From positions 1-64,000 of the IMG/VR virus record IMGVR_UViG_3300020732_000008: a stretch of DNA of 64,000 nucleotides; one strand, 5' to 3'. Shown here piece after piece: positions 3,971 through 18,610 of the stretch (position 1 is its first letter; each line of letters begins with the position of its first letter). Source of the stretch: a virus. The notes below the pieces were generated by a model. It was not told the DNA's origin, did no database searches, and saw nothing but the letters and a program-made list of their open reading frames with translations. A program made the translations under genes and the position numbers.

Positions 3971-5024
3971 CTTCGACCGCTGGTACTAAGATCTTTGGTT
4001 GATCTTTAAGGGTATCTAGAACAGCCTTACTTAGCTCTTCACTGAGATCAATCTCTTCACGAATAGAATCGATTAGAGCTTGAGCGCCTTGCCATTTACG
4101 ATCGCCATAGTATAACCAACCACCACGACGCTCGACGATCCCATTGAGGATAGACAAAGCAACGATTTCCTTACCCCTATCATACTCTCCTTCTGAGAGT
4201 ACTCCGCCATTGGCAAAGTAGAAGTCCAGGTAAGCGGTCTGTTGAGGTGGGAAAGTCTTATTTTTAATAGTACGGACACGGATGGTCTGGCCTACACGGC
4301 GCTTATCTTGACCTGTTCCGGTCTCTAACCACACATCTCGCTTTACCTCACAACGAATGCTGTAGGCATAGTCCTTGCCCAAGCCACCAGGGGTCGTACG
4401 AGGATCGCCATGCATGACGCCGATCTTCATACGGTACTGGTTAATCATGATCCCTAGTACGGGGCGTTCTTCTTCAACCAAGTCTCTCTTTGTTGCTGAC
4501 GCAACTTTTCTGAAGAACTTGTTGGTGATGAGGGCGCCACGTCCGACTGTGAACTCTTCCATACTCTTTTCGTCCTCGGCACTAGGCACCAAGCCAGGTA
4601 AGCTATCAATGACCACAATGTCGACAGCTTTCGATTCCATGAATTGAATAACCGCATCAAAGGCATCCTCCATACTTGTTGTCTCTACGACAATGACACG
4701 CTTTGTGTCTACTCCGCATATTTCTGCATAGTCTCTATCAAAGTTTTCAGCAGCAATCCATACAGCTGTAAAGTCTGGATTGATTGCCTGGTTTGTTGCA
4801 ATAGTCTTTAGCGCTATGGCTGTCTTACCATGGGAGGCTTCCCCGATAATTTCTACCCAATGATTCATTGGCCAGCCACCACCTAGGACAACATCCAGGG
4901 TGAGTGATCCGGTAGGAATTCTCTTAGGCGTATGGATCTGATCAGCAGTTACTACTGTATTAGCTCCAAGCTTTTTATTGATCTGTGCGACTACCTTAAG
5001 GGCGTCTGAGTTAATTACAGCCAT
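3960..5024 (-). CDS. recA: RecA-like recombinase
   Basis: 354 residues with a clear RecA core. Walker A is GEASHGKT at residues 61-68, Walker B is VDIVVIDSLPG near 134-145, and the DNA-binding loop region reads INQYRMKIGVMHGDPRTTPGG near 195-215, closely matching the NQ-R-KIG-GDP-TTPGG pattern of bacterial RecA. The C-terminal acidic tail (VEDED) is also typical. Expected role: strand exchange in phage recombination and replication restart. It is immediately followed by the Hjc-like nuclease. Confidence 0.93.
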   Translation of the reverse strand: MAVINSDALKVVAQINKKLGANTVVTADQIHTPKRIPTGSLTLDVVLGGGWPMNHWVEIIGEASHGKTAIALKTIATNQAINPDFTAVWIAAENFDRDYAEICGVDTKRVIVVETTSMEDAFDAVIQFMESKAVDIVVIDSLPGLVPSAEDEKSMEEFTVGRGALITNKFFRKVASATKRDLVEEERPVLGIMINQYRMKIGVMHGDPRTTPGGLGKDYAYSIRCEVKRDVWLETGTGQDKRRVGQTIRVRTIKNKTFPPQQTAYLDFYFANGGVLSEGEYDRGKEIVALSILNGIVERRGGWLYYGDRKWQGAQALIDSIREEIDLSEELSKAVLDTLKDQPKILVPAVEDED

Positions 5025-8656: not shown

Positions 8657-9151
8657 TTATTCTTCCATTTCCATTGGTCTATTGGCCTGTGTTTCTTTTT
8701 GATGAATCTTAGTCCAGGAATCTATCAATTCAATTGATAGATCTGTATGCCGATTCCAATCGATCCGTGGAGCTTGTAAAAGATCCCTAGACCGAAAGCT
8801 TTGTATTGCTGACTCTATCATATCACGACTGTACATACGCCACCCGGGCACTTTCTTGCCGTTAATTGTCATGGCCTTTAAGCGGTATGGAGCACGTGGG
8901 ATATACCCCTTACGCTCCCATAATCTCAAGGTGACAAGTGGACGACCTAGTGCTATAGACAGACTGCCTGCTGGGAATAACTCTACGGTATTACCATTAG
9001 GAAGTTTCTTTACCTGAACCTTTGACTCCCAGGTCTCTGTCTCTTTGACTGCTTTCTTGGGCTTGTCTAGATTCTTGACCTTGCGTTTAGATCCAGGATA
9101 GTACTGATCCAGCTTACCAAACATCTCATCAATCGGGTCGTTGTTGGCCAT
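8657..9151 (-). CDS. MerR-type helix-turn-helix protein
   Basis: 164 residues. The core FPAGSLSIALGRPLVTLRLWERKGYIP reads as a MerR/excisionase-like winged helix, in which the helix pair is followed by a wing (GWRMYSRDMIE). The N-terminus is lysine-rich and the C-terminus helical. It probably binds DNA as a regulator or replication accessory. The gene overlaps the upstream one by 23 bases and is three bases before the putative SSB gene. Confidence 0.68.
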   Translation of the reverse strand: MANNDPIDEMFGKLDQYYPGSKRKVKNLDKPKKAVKETETWESKVQVKKLPNGNTVELFPAGSLSIALGRPLVTLRLWERKGYIPRAPYRLKAMTINGKKVPGWRMYSRDMIESAIQSFRSRDLLQAPRIDWNRHTDLSIELIDSWTKIHQKETQANRPMEMEE

Positions 9152-13057: not shown

Positions 13058-13211
13058 TTTCAGTCCTTCGATTTCCACAGTTGTTACAGTAGGTATAAAT
13101 ATTTCCACTCCAGGGGCAAGTTACGCTCGTGGAGTCATCATAGGTATGACCATTAACCTTGCAATGGCGTCTAGCCTTGTACAAACGATAAGCAGTAATT
13201 AGCTTAGTCAA
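13050..13211 (-). CDS. Small cysteine-rich protein, 53 aa
   Basis: TTG start overlapping the end of the primase gene, with a strong GGGGGAGG six to eight bases upstream. The N-terminus is basic (YRLYKARRHCK) and the rest carries C, CPW, C and CNNC residues spaced as HCK ... TCPWSG ... YCNNCGNRR, suggesting one zinc site. No known family. Part of the run of tiny metal-binding genes between primase and the SNF2 helicase. Confidence 0.58.
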   Translation of the reverse strand: MTKLITAYRLYKARRHCKVNGHTYDDSTSVTCPWSGNIYTYCNNCGNRRTENV

Positions 13212-14145
13212 GAGCTTCCTCCCCCATCACACAGTGTTTGGCGTTATCAATGCCCCACTGTATATCAATTAGATCCATATCGCCAATATCTTTTACTTCT
13301 AGGTTTCCGTAGTTGAATATAGAGAACTCCATACCCTGTTCACGTAAAGCCTTGAATAGCAGCCGGGTAGATTCTTTGCCTGTGGCATCGTTATCTAAAG
13401 CCAGTATCAAGACATCTGCTTTACGCATAAGGGTCAGCTGTTCCTTACTTACTATGGCCCCCATGACAGCTACCCCACCGTCAATGCCAAGGCTTGATAG
13501 TCGAACAACGTCTAGTGGTGACTCTACCACCACCATGGTTCCACCTTCAAATTTATCGATGCTAAAGAGGGTGCTCGACTTTGTGATCCCTGGAGGACGG
13601 TTAAAGAACCGGCGGGTTAGCTCGCCCTTTTCTTGCCAGCCAAGAAGCTTTCCTGCCTCTGTACGGACTGGAAGGATCCAGGTAGAGTCTGAGTGTCTCC
13701 AAAGGATCTCGTGCTTCTTACAGGCTTCTAGGGTTAGCTTACGGTTACTGGCTGCCCACTCTGGAACGTCCTGGAATACCGAAAGGCGAGCATCGCTCAT
13801 GTCAACCAGTCTGGGGATAGGTTGGTAGCTGTTACGAGCTTCTTCCAAGGAAGCTGACAACCTATCCCAGTCAACCTCTACGTTCTCGTCTAGCCATTCC
13901 CTGGCCTTAGAGATGCTGTCTAGTTCTAGGACATCAGAGATTAGGCTTAATAAGTTGCCCTTGTAGCCACAGGAGAAACAGTTATGGGCTCCAGTAATTA
14001 TATGAATACCCCAAGAAGGGTTGCTGTCTTCTACACCCTTGATTGCTTTATGCATTGGGCATAGAGCCGTAATGTTGCTATTACGTTCTGTTCCCTCAAT
14101 ACCAAGGCGCAGTAGTACCCGCTCTACGTCACCAGCAGTAAACAT
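13204..14145 (-). CDS. DnaG-like DNA primase (zinc-binding and Toprim domains)
   Basis: 313 residues, shorter than cellular DnaG. The N-terminal zinc-binding domain shows CPMH near residue 29 and CFSC near 56. The Toprim domain shows VVVESPLDVVRLS near 190 (catalytic Glu) and ILALDNDATGK near 250 (DxD). The C-terminal helicase-binding domain is short or absent. It should prime lagging-strand synthesis with the DnaB-type helicase encoded upstream. Starts in a TAATG junction. Confidence 0.93.
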   Translation of the reverse strand: MFTAGDVERVLLRLGIEGTERNSNITALCPMHKAIKGVEDSNPSWGIHIITGAHNCFSCGYKGNLLSLISDVLELDSISKAREWLDENVEVDWDRLSASLEEARNSYQPIPRLVDMSDARLSVFQDVPEWAASNRKLTLEACKKHEILWRHSDSTWILPVRTEAGKLLGWQEKGELTRRFFNRPPGITKSSTLFSIDKFEGGTMVVVESPLDVVRLSSLGIDGGVAVMGAIVSKEQLTLMRKADVLILALDNDATGKESTRLLFKALREQGMEFSIFNYGNLEVKDIGDMDLIDIQWGIDNAKHCVMGEEALD

Positions 14146-14297: not shown

Positions 14298-14521
14298 TCC
14301 CCCTTAATATATCCCGGCTTATCAACCGGGGTTGGAGCTGTAGCAAATGTTCCACAGATGGCACACTCCATCGGTAAAAGATACTGTGATATCTCATAGT
14401 CTTCAAATGAAACCTTTAGGTTCCAAAGATTTGATTCACACTTGGGACACTCATGACATATAGTGTTCTCATAGTCCATGGTCCCGGTGTAATCAGGCCG
14501 TAGCTCTCGTATTGATTTCAC
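14294..14521 (-). CDS. Zinc-ribbon protein, 75 aa
   Basis: Contains CHECPKC and, after about 27 residues, CAICG, so one four-cysteine zinc ribbon or slightly more. The C-terminus is proline-rich. It overlaps the WhiB gene upstream by 28 bases. Function unknown. Confidence 0.66.
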   Translation of the reverse strand: MKSIRELRPDYTGTMDYENTICHECPKCESNLWNLKVSFEDYEISQYLLPMECAICGTFATAPTPVDKPGYIKGE

Positions 14522-14774
14522 TGGACCTCATCTTTCTACGTAGCTTTCGACGTTCTTCCGTGGTTGTTCCGCCCCAGATACCCTCTAAACGTTCGTCTAG
14601 AGCCAGGGTTAAACACTGTGACTGTACAGCACATGTTGAGCAGATACTTTTAGCAAGGAGACTCTGTATACGATCCTCTTCGTCTTCAGGAAAGAAGATG
14701 TCCGGATCTTTATCCGAACAAGCAGTGTTTCCATCAAACAGCGAAGGGGTTTCCATATTCTTCAAAGCGTCCAT
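14493..14774 (-). CDS. WhiB-like transcription factor (classical spacing)
   Basis: The core shows C, CSTC and C (in NTAC, ICSTC, SQC) with a classical C-x2-C pair, the GIWGG turn and a basic helix (EERRKLRRKMR). These are the defining WhiB features: a 4Fe-4S cluster and DNA or sigma-factor binding. The start is uncertain: ATG 14774, TTG 14765 or ATG 14756 are all in frame; an open frame continues upstream into the helicase gene. It is the second WhiB-like protein of this phage and lies inside the replication operon. Confidence 0.9.
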   Translation of the reverse strand: MDALKNMETPSLFDGNTACSDKDPDIFFPEDEEDRIQSLLAKSICSTCAVQSQCLTLALDERLEGIWGGTTTEERRKLRRKMRSSEINTRATA

Positions 14775-15981
14775 TCTCCCAATCCCATAGTAGCTCTGCT
14801 TCTGCTGGTCCACTGTTACGACTTCTATCAATCCGAAGGATTCTAGAACTGTCGTCTTCTTCATCCTGGCGCTGTAGTGCTAGGACTACGTCTGAGTCTT
14901 GCTCAAACGAAGAAGAGTAACCGATGGCACTTGACGTAACTCGACCCTTGGTCATCTTGCTTGTGAGGACCTGGGTAGTCTGGATTACCGGTATGTTGTA
15001 CTTCTGAGCAATGCGCTTCATGCCCTGAGTAATGTGCTGGAGGTTGCTTGGACTACCACGACGTGTTTCACCACGGCTGGCTTCCTCATCCTCCATAAGA
15101 TAAACACCATCAACGAACAGTGCATCAGGACGATGCTTCTCTACCTTAGCAATAAGAGATGTTAGGTTCATTGCCTGGACGGAGTCAGTTAATAGAAACG
15201 GATGCATCTCTGAGTTTCTCTTAAGCCAAGCTTCATAGCGCTCTTCTTCATCAGGATTAAGAGCACCACGAATAAGTCTGCTTTGAGCGATGTGAGCACG
15301 CATAGAGTCATAACGATGCTGTTGCTCTATGTTAGTCATTTCAAAAGATTGGAACATAGGTACAAAGCCATCTTCATGGAGGTTAGCTGCTACCTGCAAA
15401 GCAAGAACAGATTTACCTGTCTTTGGTGGAGCAATGATAGTGACTAGCTGTCCACCCTGCAGCCCACCAGTTGCTAGGTCAATGGTGTTGAACCCACTGG
15501 CCATACCGATCAAGCCGTTAGGACGTAGCTTAATGTTTCTATAATCCTCAAGGCGTTGCTCTGTGTTGCTTGACAGGTTAACGTCATGGCTTTCAGAACC
15601 ACCGGTAAGGGCAACCTTATGTATACCCGAGGTAAGGATCTCTGTGATTACGTCATTGTCTGCTACCTCTTTAATGGAGGAACCAGCTGCTTGGACAGTA
15701 TCAATCAGGGTCTGTCGATTGCGATAAGCAATCAACTGATCCAGTAAGTAACTAACTGAGTCGTCTACTTTTAGAAGGCGGTAGGTAGGATAGTTATCTA
15801 GCAGAGTTACTGCTGTAGGCACTTCTCCATATTTTGAAAAGTGATTACGAATAAACTTCCATATTTGCTGGTTCTCTTCGACAAAGAACCAATCATCTTT
15901 TACACCACGTTCTAATAGGTAGCCGAGATCACGATCACGGATGACCTTAGAGATTAACCGTACTTCGTTGTCCGCTGCCAT
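14734..15981 (-). CDS. DnaB-like replicative helicase
   Basis: 415 residues. The N-terminal helical domain is followed by a RecA-like ATPase with Walker A APPKTGKS near residue 182, Walker B ALFVDGVYL near 285-293, and a later segment IPVIQTTQVLTSK and RIDRSRNSGPA typical of DnaB C-terminal motifs. It would unwind the fork and recruit the primase. It is encoded next to the loader and initiator genes. Confidence 0.93.
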   Translation of the reverse strand: MAADNEVRLISKVIRDRDLGYLLERGVKDDWFFVEENQQIWKFIRNHFSKYGEVPTAVTLLDNYPTYRLLKVDDSVSYLLDQLIAYRNRQTLIDTVQAAGSSIKEVADNDVITEILTSGIHKVALTGGSESHDVNLSSNTEQRLEDYRNIKLRPNGLIGMASGFNTIDLATGGLQGGQLVTIIAPPKTGKSVLALQVAANLHEDGFVPMFQSFEMTNIEQQHRYDSMRAHIAQSRLIRGALNPDEEERYEAWLKRNSEMHPFLLTDSVQAMNLTSLIAKVEKHRPDALFVDGVYLMEDEEASRGETRRGSPSNLQHITQGMKRIAQKYNIPVIQTTQVLTSKMTKGRVTSSAIGYSSSFEQDSDVVLALQRQDEEDDSSRILRIDRSRNSGPAEAELLWDWENGRFEEYGNPFAV

Positions 15982-16387: not shown

Positions 16388-16672
16388 TTAAATAACCGTT
16401 ACTGTTCCCCAGTAAAGGAGTAGGTCACGAAAGGCTTCATGTGAGGCCTTAGCCTCTTCAATAAGATGCTTAGGTGTGTACTTAGAGATCTCTACAGGAA
16501 AGATGTCATCTTCCAGGCTGTCTAATACATAGCGAGTATGCTTGCAATTCTTACGGGTATTAAACCCATTGCAAGAGCAGCGCAGATCCTTTTCAGTTGA
16601 GGCCTGTACCTCATCTACGCCATCAAGAGATAAGAAAAACTTAATTGTTTTCCACTCGATCACTTTACTCAT
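16388..16672 (-). CDS. SWIM-like zinc-finger protein, 94 aa
   Basis: The motif CSCNGFNTRKNCKH reads as C-x-C-x(n)-C-x-H, the pattern of SWIM zinc fingers, which bind DNA or proteins. The rest is helical and acidic. The start overlaps the end of the helicase-loader gene by four bases, and the gene lies inside the replication operon. Confidence 0.7.
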   Translation of the reverse strand: MSKVIEWKTIKFFLSLDGVDEVQASTEKDLRCSCNGFNTRKNCKHTRYVLDSLEDDIFPVEISKYTPKHLIEEAKASHEAFRDLLLYWGTVTVI

Positions 16673-17334
16673 TTCCTTCTATCTCCCTCCAGAGAATTTA
16701 CATTCAAGTGCATGAATGCTTCATGAGCAAAACTATACATAGGTTCACCGTATATGTCACTCCAGCTTTCAATAGGAACGTTTGTCGTTACTATTGTTGG
16801 CAGGCCCTTATTAAAACGTGAACGCAGCATGGCATCAAGTGTTGACTCAGCCCAACCACTGCTAGTCCTGTATTCTTTTCCAAGATCATCTACAATGAGA
16901 AGCTTTATACTTTGGTCGTCTAATTCACCATACAAAGCCGCTGTTACATCGGTGTCATCTTCCCAACCATTCTTCTCAATTCTAAGAAGCTTTGGAAAGT
17001 CACCAAAGTAAACTGGACGTGATGCAATCTTATTTCCCCACAGACCCTGTGGAGCATGACGAATAATCTCTTGTGCAATTGTTGCAGCCAGTGTGGTCTT
17101 ACCATGTCCTGGCTTACCGATCATAAGCAGTCCAACACCACAGGTGTCTTTGCCTTCGGATTTAATTACTTCTCCATTTAGCAGAGCGTTCATCCAACCA
17201 ATAACGTCTTCGATGACCTCGCCTTCATACGGGTCTAGATCTGAAAGCTCTTTACCAATATGCTTCATGGGGAAGTCAGCATTCTTAATCTGACTACGCA
17301 AGCTATATGGGTGAAGTTCTGAGACGCTATACAT
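16669..17334 (-). CDS. DnaC-like AAA+ helicase loader
   Basis: 221 residues. Walker A is GKPGHGKTT at residues 73-81, Walker B is LLIVDDLGKEY near 145-155, and an arginine-rich sensor region follows (LRSRFNKGLPTIVTTN). This matches the DnaC/IstB-type AAA+ ATPases that load DnaB. It overlaps the initiator gene by eight bases, and the order initiator, loader, helicase supports the role. Confidence 0.9.
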   Translation of the reverse strand: MYSVSELHPYSLRSQIKNADFPMKHIGKELSDLDPYEGEVIEDVIGWMNALLNGEVIKSEGKDTCGVGLLMIGKPGHGKTTLAATIAQEIIRHAPQGLWGNKIASRPVYFGDFPKLLRIEKNGWEDDTDVTAALYGELDDQSIKLLIVDDLGKEYRTSSGWAESTLDAMLRSRFNKGLPTIVTTNVPIESWSDIYGEPMYSFAHEAFMHLNVNSLEGDRRK

Positions 17335-18325
17335 TCTTGCTATCCAATCTTCCGAAGACTTCCTTCATTCGCTTCTGAGCTTTTGAATCAGCTGTAGCAG
17401 CTTCAACAACTTCTCGTTCCACAAACTTGTACCGGAACTTGTACCAGTACTTGAAGAACCGATGCATGATGCTATCCCCTTTGCCTGGCTCACGCAAACT
17501 ACGTGGGTCATTAAAGAAAGCTCGAATAGCAGCGAGTAGCTGAACTCTAGTAGCACCTTCACGAATGTGCTTGTTGATCATGACTGACAAGGTCTTGGCG
17601 TTTGCCTGATCAGGAACGCCGGGAAGCTTCTGCTGCAATAGAGCATAGAACTCTCCGACTAGGTCGTGAGTGTTCCAGAACTCTTCTGGCTTATCAAAGC
17701 GGCTGGCCGCTTTTCTTTCTGGGACAGTCTTCTTGTACTTAGCGTTAAGCCGTGCACGCTTCTGCTCTGGAGTTTCTTCGAAACGTCCAACAGCACCAAC
17801 GACATCTTCGTCAGCCATAGCAGCCAAGCGACGTATCTGGCTCTTAGAGAGCTCTGGCTTCTCCTCGCCGTCAAGATTCCAACCCATCTCATTTCCCTCC
17901 TTGGGTTTCACGCCCGCAGGGCGGGCAACCTGAATTGAAGGACGTAGTCCTTCAATGAGGTTTTGCTTACTACTATTATCTATATATATGACCGGCATAC
18001 GGTTGCCGGTCGGTAAACTGCCGGTCGGTGTACTGCCGGTCGGTGAAGTCAATCCAAAGGCCTCAGGCGTATTGTTCAAGGATCCCCATGCGAACATCAG
18101 TTCCGTGCCGCATTGTCCATTTTCATCTCGGTACTTATGTGATTCTATGTAGCCATGCTTCTTAAGCTCCCTCATCCAACCCTCGATCTTTTTAAGACCA
18201 TCTGGTAGGAACTGGTGAAACTCGTCAGCTGTTATTACTCGTCCTGTTTGCATCATCTTTAAGAAAAGATAACGTGCACCAACAGAAAGCATCGGATCGT
18301 CATAGACGTCTTCCGGCTTTTTCAT
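17327..18325 (-). CDS. Winged-helix replication initiator-like protein
   Basis: 332 residues. The N-terminal part (DDPMLSVGARYLFLKMM ... WMRELKKHGYIESH) is a winged helix-turn-helix like those of phage replication initiators. A Thr/Pro/Gly-rich linker follows at residues about 85-110, then a C-terminal helical domain (PEEFWNTHDLVGEFYALLQ ... MHRFFKYWYKFRY) resembling DnaD/DnaT-type partners. A strong ribosome binding site (AAGGAGGGG) precedes the ATG. Its linker-coding DNA carries the repeat cluster described as a candidate origin. Confidence 0.72.
   Translation of the reverse strand: MKKPEDVYDDPMLSVGARYLFLKMMQTGRVITADEFHQFLPDGLKKIEGWMRELKKHGYIESHKYRDENGQCGTELMFAWGSLNNTPEAFGLTSPTGSTPTGSLPTGNRMPVIYIDNSSKQNLIEGLRPSIQVARPAGVKPKEGNEMGWNLDGEEKPELSKSQIRRLAAMADEDVVGAVGRFEETPEQKRARLNAKYKKTVPERKAASRFDKPEEFWNTHDLVGEFYALLQQKLPGVPDQANAKTLSVMINKHIREGATRVQLLAAIRAFFNDPRSLREPGKGDSIMHRFFKYWYKFRYKFVEREVVEAATADSKAQKRMKEVFGRLDSKNV
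17912..18047. other. Candidate replication origin within the initiator gene
   Basis: Four elements lie together. First, a 6-bp inverted repeat GCCCGC/GCGGGC (17912-17926). Second, a perfect 10-bp inverted repeat ATTGAAGGAC/GTCCTTCAAT (17934-17956). Third, an AT-rich tract (about 17961-17990). Fourth, three 15-base-spaced direct repeats of TGCCGGTCGGT (18004, 18019, 18034), the first also pairing with ACCGGCA at 17991. Iterons next to an AT-rich tract in the initiator linker resemble the lambda origin in gene O. Location inside a coding region makes a purely structural origin plausible but unproven. Confidence 0.6.
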
Positions 18326-18334
18326 TACCCCTCC

Positions 18335-18610
18335 TTAAGGACGGGGAACTCTCCTCGGCAATCCACTTAGATCCCGGGCGTTGACCCCGACGAAAGTTTG
18401 CTCCACAAGTAATGAACTTGTCAAACCGAGAAATGTAGATGCCAGGATTTCAAAAATTGTCGCCCGACTTAAGGGCATCATTATTGTTGTTCCCAGGACC
18501 GAGAATAGTAGCGCAAGTAAACCCCTCCATTTACCAAGGGGTGCGATGAGGCTTTCTACTGCCGTTAAAACGCATGCTGTTGCAAAAGCTACGATCAATA
18601 CGTTGGACAT
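18335..18610 (-). CDS. Putative holin or small membrane protein, 91 aa
   Basis: Three hydrophobic segments (about residues 4-24, 29-47 and 51-72) separated by short charged turns, with a basic C-terminal tail, match a small holin-like membrane protein. It directly follows the last tail gene, a common holin position. No endolysin gene was recognised beside it, so lysis function is inferred from topology and place. Confidence 0.5.
   Translation of the reverse strand: MSNVLIVAFATACVLTAVESLIAPLGKWRGLLALLFSVLGTTIMMPLSRATIFEILASTFLGLTSSLLVEQTFVGVNARDLSGLPRRVPRP

Follow-up and report, generated by a model that had tools for sequence, protein, structure and literature searches.

The closest described arrangement is the replication origin of phage lambda and of its Stx-phage relatives, which is situated inside the initiator gene (O in lambda), with repeats followed by an AT-rich tract and with the helicase loader gene adjoining (PMC5043065, PMC7466680). 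The lambda iterons are imperfect palindromes of 18-19 bp bound by O dimers, and the AT tract that follows them has 40 bp. The oriC of Bacillus subtilis, with its DnaA-trios and DnaD element, is another term of comparison, and there DnaD reads TnnT motifs by means of its C-terminal tail (PMC10201434). DNA hairpins with a GNA-type loop form the promoters of the N4 virion RNA polymerase, where the stem letters are variable while the pairing is kept, and where the hairpin persists on one strand (PMC4496689). These promoters have stems of 5-7 bp, occur several times per genome and are read by a giant virion polymerase. Hairpins are also found at origins, and in the complementary-strand origin of phage G4 and the ssiA and ssiB sites of RSF1010 they place the first primer on one strand. 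We know of no single-strand initiation site of this type embedded in the coding linker of an initiator.

The element considered here occupies positions 17912-18047 of the window (the whole stretch of 64,000 nucleotides that was analyzed, itself part of a virus record of 103,932 bases with 45% GC). It is probably a cis-acting replication origin placed inside the initiator's own gene and containing a strand-specific hairpin module. A first-pass annotation had likened it to the lambda O/ori arrangement. The likeness holds for the layout, i.e., an origin in the initiator gene, repeats and then an AT-rich tract, and an adjoining loader gene, but it extends neither to the initiator, which looks DnaD-like rather than O-like, nor to the repeats, which are asymmetric, non-palindromic 11-mers spaced by 15 bp. 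Also unlike lambda ori, there are two hairpins, the first of which is strictly co-varying with GN(N)A loops. Because the iteron symmetry and the initiator family differ from those of lambda, the element is not classed as a lambda-type origin. With B. subtilis oriC it may share a DnaD-type initiator (on a weak structure match), and it shares a tract with T at about every third base, which recalls, as a resemblance, the DnaA-trios and TnnT motifs, although the phage tract sits inside a coding region. With the N4 promoters it shares a DNA hairpin with a GNA-type loop and freely varying stem letters, and with the G4 and RSF1010 sites the presence of hairpins at a putative origin, priming being here a proposal. 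No published report of such a hairpin module was found in the open-licence literature searched.

The element, its gene and the neighboring genes

The repeat features listed in the first-pass annotation (two inverted repeats, an AT-rich tract, three 11-mers and an inverted copy) were all found where it had placed them, and are summarized in Table 1 together with the genes. The three copies of TGCCGGTCGGT are exact and phased at 15 bp. This is the sole exact three-copy 11-mer with a period of 12-30 in the 64-kb window, and no further site with one mismatch or less occurs in the whole 104-kb record. The 11-mer is asymmetric and is accompanied by a single inverted half-copy, so that GACCGGCA-TACGGT-TGCCGGTC is read at 17990-18011, with 8-bp arms and a 6-nt spacer. 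The AT-rich tract contains about 70% A+T over 30 bp.

Table 1. Positions of the element's components and of the replication genes in the window; the initiator is encoded on the minus strand.
Feature	Positions	Strand	Details
DnaG-type primase	13204-14145	-	zinc ribbon and TOPRIM
DnaB-like replicative helicase	14734-15981	-	
DnaC-like helicase loader	16669-17334	-	
Initiator gene	17327-18325	-	332 aa; assigned from weak PHROG matches, fold and neighbors
Initiator domains			winged-helix N-terminal, about residues 4-78; disordered linker, residues 87-155; helical C-terminal domain
Possible internal reading frame	17327-17887	-	186 aa, starts MGW; C-terminal part of initiator
Shine-Dalgarno-like AAGGAGG	17896-17902	-	8 nt before in-frame ATG
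Hairpin 2	17912-17926	+	GCCCGC-AGG-GCGGGC, GC-rich
Hairpin 1	17934-17956	+	ATTGAAGGAC-GTA-GTCCTTCAAT; loop C-GTA-G on the plus (non-coding) strand
AT-rich tract	17959-17989	no strand	
Inverted iteron half	17990-17997	-	GACCGGCA on plus strand
Iteron copy	18004-18014	+	TGCCGGTCGGT; first 8 bases pair with inverted copy 17990-17997
Iteron copy	18019-18029	+	TGCCGGTCGGT
Iteron copy	18034-18044	+	TGCCGGTCGGT (ACCGACCGGCA on coding strand)

Perfect inverted repeats with arms of 10 bp and a loop of 3-8 occur just twice in the window, as hairpin 1 and as atctatcaat-TCA-attgatagat at 8720-8742. When the codons of the window's gene were shuffled synonymously, a 10-bp arm was attained in 0 of 200 shuffles. 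Folded as single-stranded DNA, the hairpin segment yielded -19.6 kcal/mol, compared to -6.6 ± 1.9 for shuffled sequences. In a scan for intrinsic terminators, the two hairpins were not called as a terminator. A terminator-like stem, AAAGCGGCTGGCCGCTTT followed by TCTTTCT, was observed at 17696-17713 on the plus strand, opposite the initiator gene, and could be due to chance.

Concerning the protein, the view that this DNA encodes a low-complexity linker between the winged-helix and C-terminal domains is in agreement with the structure model, in which the N-terminal winged helix is confident, the C-terminal domain is helical, and the linker (residues 87-155, pLDDT below 50) is predicted to be disordered. 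The initiator gave no match to Pfam, a weak match over residues 4-74 to the DnaD-like PHROG 186 (E 4e-5) and, as best solved structure in Foldseek, the N-terminal domain of B. subtilis DnaD (2v79; probability 1.00, although with a weak E of 0.07). By both PHROG and fold it looks DnaD-like rather than lambda-O-like; the initiator of one relative gave a very weak O-like PHROG match. Downstream of the initiator gene, the DnaC-like loader and the DnaB-like helicase expected from the first reading are followed by a DnaG-type primase. A WhiB-like regulator adjoins the helicase (14493-14864, minus strand), pointing to an actinobacterial host.

Conservation and co-variation among relatives

A search with the window's initiator returned near-identical copies only, and a protein search for its cultured relatives returned none. 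Relatives were collected as 80 loci through the helicase, mostly virus fragments, and 80 more through an initiator profile, and 144 homologous initiator ORFs were read. Some contigs contributed more than one locus, and distinct sequences are therefore counted below. Cellular genomes yielded weak loader matches only, with no host or prophage copy found. Streptomyces phage BRock and its relatives share the loader and the helicase, but their candidate upstream gene (one examined in each) is unrelated and the hairpin is absent. A search for relatives with separate genes for the N- and C-terminal parts gave none, the short ORFs being contig ends or due to a frameshift.

Hairpin 1, defined by arms of 10 bp or more, was present in 139 of the 144 ORFs and at one and the same place in the linker, with perfect arms of 10-15 bp and coding-strand loops TAAC (94), TAC (44) or TTC (1). 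The arms themselves vary widely, as in tatagatacagttac, tatagataataatcc, tatagttaaagatac, acattagaagtac and attgaaggac, and so do the amino acids encoded over the hairpin (IDTVTNVTVSI, IDNNPNGLLSI, IVKDTNVSLTI, LEVLRTSN, IEGLRPSIQ). Among 28 distinct versions, the inner ten pairs were Watson-Crick in 280 of 280 cases, with no G-T pair, and the closing pair was C-G in every version. In an alignment of 26 distinct versions, two-sided changes were found in 120 cells and a one-sided change in 1, and the covariation score was 0.83, against 0.18 for shuffled alignments and 0.14 or less when the partners were slid. A tree of 86 taxa required no fewer than 68 changes of pair type. The number of perfect pairs may have been raised by picking the longest perfect repeat, but loop and position hardly vary, which shows that one and the same element was picked in every case. 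In synonymous shuffles of the relatives' genes, the longest arm averaged about 6 and the observed length was rarely attained. These results support selection at the DNA level on hairpin 1 under varying codons. A sequence-specific dimer site was also considered and is disfavored, as the arms vary freely while the pairing is kept.

On the non-coding strand, the loops of hairpin 1 read GTA, GTTA or GAA, so that all 28 distinct versions have the form C-GN(N)A-G. GNA and GNNA loops give extra-stable DNA mini-hairpins, from which the motif definition was taken (PMC4686876), and by its sequence hairpin 1 fits this motif on the non-coding strand. A loop of this type, containing a sheared G:A pair, also caps the promoter hairpin of N4, and there SSB melts the hairpin of the opposite strand while sparing this one (PMC4496689). 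Both strands had nearly the same folding energy in the model used, so it is the loop motif that carries the argument for one strand. Hairpin 2, which in relatives usually abuts hairpin 1 directly, or nearly so, has a GN(N)A loop on the non-coding strand in 15 of 25 distinct versions and on the other strand in 1 of 25; the loop AGG of the window departs from this. The lack of any G-T pair speaks for a DNA rather than an RNA structure, and Watson-Crick co-variation, together with loops of a single DNA motif, points to selection for folded single-stranded DNA within the gene.

The five ORFs without a standard hairpin 1 are two contig-end fragments, the sister genes L158 (103-1008) and L159 (1989-2930), and the distant L087. 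The sister initiators lack both hairpins, but their TACTAGT tract is longer and they keep the internal start described below; this looks like a natural loss or replacement, and the hairpins are thus dispensable in some lineages that keep the tract. L087 has, at the same place, two abutting hairpins (4113-4157) whose loops are AAGAACA and AG; the arrangement with two hairpins may thus predate the GN(N)A loop.

Upstream of hairpin 1, the tract is marked by codon choice. In the 20 preceding codons, Ser is encoded by AGT in 55% of cases (12% elsewhere in the genes), Ile by ATA in 62% (14%) and Thr by ACT in 78% (35%). The tract in relatives averages 64% A+T, compared to 54% in the rest of the genes, and is rich in TACTAGT, with T at about every third base as a result of this bias. 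A CCGAC or GTCGG motif is present in 33 of the 49 distinct regions upstream, while iteron copies phased at 15 bp are limited to the window and about six of the 49 distinct relatives; most relatives have one CCGAC motif or none, without a multi-copy array. The iteron array is less conserved than the inverted repeat of hairpin 1. It had been proposed to examine whether the repeats are kept in related phages while the codons vary, and this turned out true of hairpin 1, whereas for the iterons the refuting outcome named there, loss of the repeats with the protein linker kept, was found by half. The original idea of an origin-like element in the initiator gene stands, with its emphasis displaced from the iterons to the hairpin module, which is the conserved core.

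The HTH genes of the distant cultured phages Whack, Cinna, Clawz and Gilgamesh showed nothing comparable to hairpin 1; an inverted repeat of 8 bp is present in the PVTG linker of Whack. In the actinophages Whack (L306, 2977-3867) and Cinna (L307, 2989-3639), repeats of PVTG/FPTTG type directly follow the winged helix of the HTH protein, suggesting that linkers encoding iterons could be widespread among genes of this kind.

Origin reading and alternatives

The GC-skew check proposed in the first-pass annotation placed the cumulative minimum of the 104-kb record at 18,535, some 0.6 kb away from the element, although gene direction is the same on either side. Ten records of about 100 kb contain exactly one such hairpin each, always within the initiator gene. 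All ten show a positive skew step at the element. Their strongest step falls about 1.3 kb or less from the hairpin in five cases, and in several of the ten stronger steps are seen tens of kb away. These observations are support rather than proof, because the ten records are related to one another and the element is near the boundary between replication and tail genes, which possibly has a skew of its own.

The main rival to a replication origin is that the hairpins act in the mRNA, controlling or insulating an internal start, so that two products, the entire initiator and a C-terminal isoform, come from the one gene. Right after hairpin 2, 58 of 59 distinct genes have an in-frame start codon (ATG in 48, GTG in 10) that precedes NNN-TGG and nearly always comes after a purine-rich Shine-Dalgarno sequence, and the placing of these signals just after the hairpins agrees with such a role. 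Moreover, C(UAAC)G could be a stable RNA tetraloop, UNAC being a stable class. UAC and UUC triloops, on the other hand, fit no RNA loop family known to us, whereas a single motif, GN(N)A, covers every loop when the DNA strand is read. It is also unusual for an RNA helix to show no G-U in 280 inner pairs and changes that are almost all two-sided. An Rfam search gave no match, and the bias of the upstream tract and the CCGAC repeats would be left unexplained. A role in mRNA seems unlikely as the reason for the hairpins. The C-terminal isoform from the internal start is itself likely, judging from its sequence signals, and an origin would not preclude such a start.

A very unlikely alternative is a single-strand hairpin promoter of the N4 type, at which a polymerase would copy the non-coding strand into a transcript or primer. 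The loop class C-GNA-G is shared and is on the would-be template strand, transcription in the direction of the gene would start just before the internal Shine-Dalgarno sequence and ATG, and the constancy of the hairpin over variable stem letters is also a property of N4 promoters (PMC4496689). However, there is one site per genome and the stems have 10-15 bp compared to 5-7 bp in N4. Record G000 has no ORF longer than 1,300 aa, and a T7/N4-type polymerase (Pfam PF00940) was not matched in the ten records, which is weak evidence as the control was silent too.

Even less probable is that the palindrome was perfected by template switching at quasi-palindromes and has little or no function. This process yields simultaneous two-sided changes without G-T intermediates, matching the pattern seen, but it does not account for a fixed place, a near-fixed loop and closing pair, or 10-15 bp kept across proteins about 30-40% identical, nor for a strand-biased loop motif in two different hairpins with a co-conserved tract bias. 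Finally, that PTG-type linker repeats (the linker encodes SPTGSTPTGSLPTG, and PTG/PxxG linkers occur in HTH proteins of other actinophages) produced the DNA repeats by chance is scarcely credible, as the 11-mers are exact in spite of the four-fold degeneracy of Pro, Thr and Gly codons, and the hairpin is kept while amino acids change and is not given by synonymous shuffles; this reading is already largely refuted for the hairpin, not for the iterons.

Proposed function and meaning

We infer the identity of the replication origin, the action of the hairpin as single-stranded DNA and what the hairpin recruits. In the mechanism proposed, the winged-helix initiator would bind the ACCGAC iterons and the adjoining AT-rich, T-periodic tract would open. 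On the exposed plus (non-coding) strand, both inverted repeats would fold into hairpins with very stable C-GN(N)A-G loops, which may persist where SSB would melt the hairpin of the opposite strand. The resulting strand-specific structure would position helicase loading or the first primer.

We tentatively propose, with less assurance than for the origin itself, that the element represents an undescribed class of origin, belonging to a large group of actinophage-like viruses that are mostly uncultured. In this class, a pair of strand-specific, SSB-resistant hairpins, embedded in coding sequence and maintained by compensatory change under a second coding load, would direct the loading of the helicase or priming, and a separate C-terminal isoform would be made from an internal start in that gene.

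If confirmed, the hairpin module would allow replication origins of uncultured phages to be recognized from a sequence signature, and would offer a natural test case for the participation of DNA hairpins in helicase loading or priming. Protein, origin and internal start would then be three overlapping loads carried by about 150 bases. Co-varying structures are usually read as RNA; here, the reading would be that of a folded single-stranded DNA.
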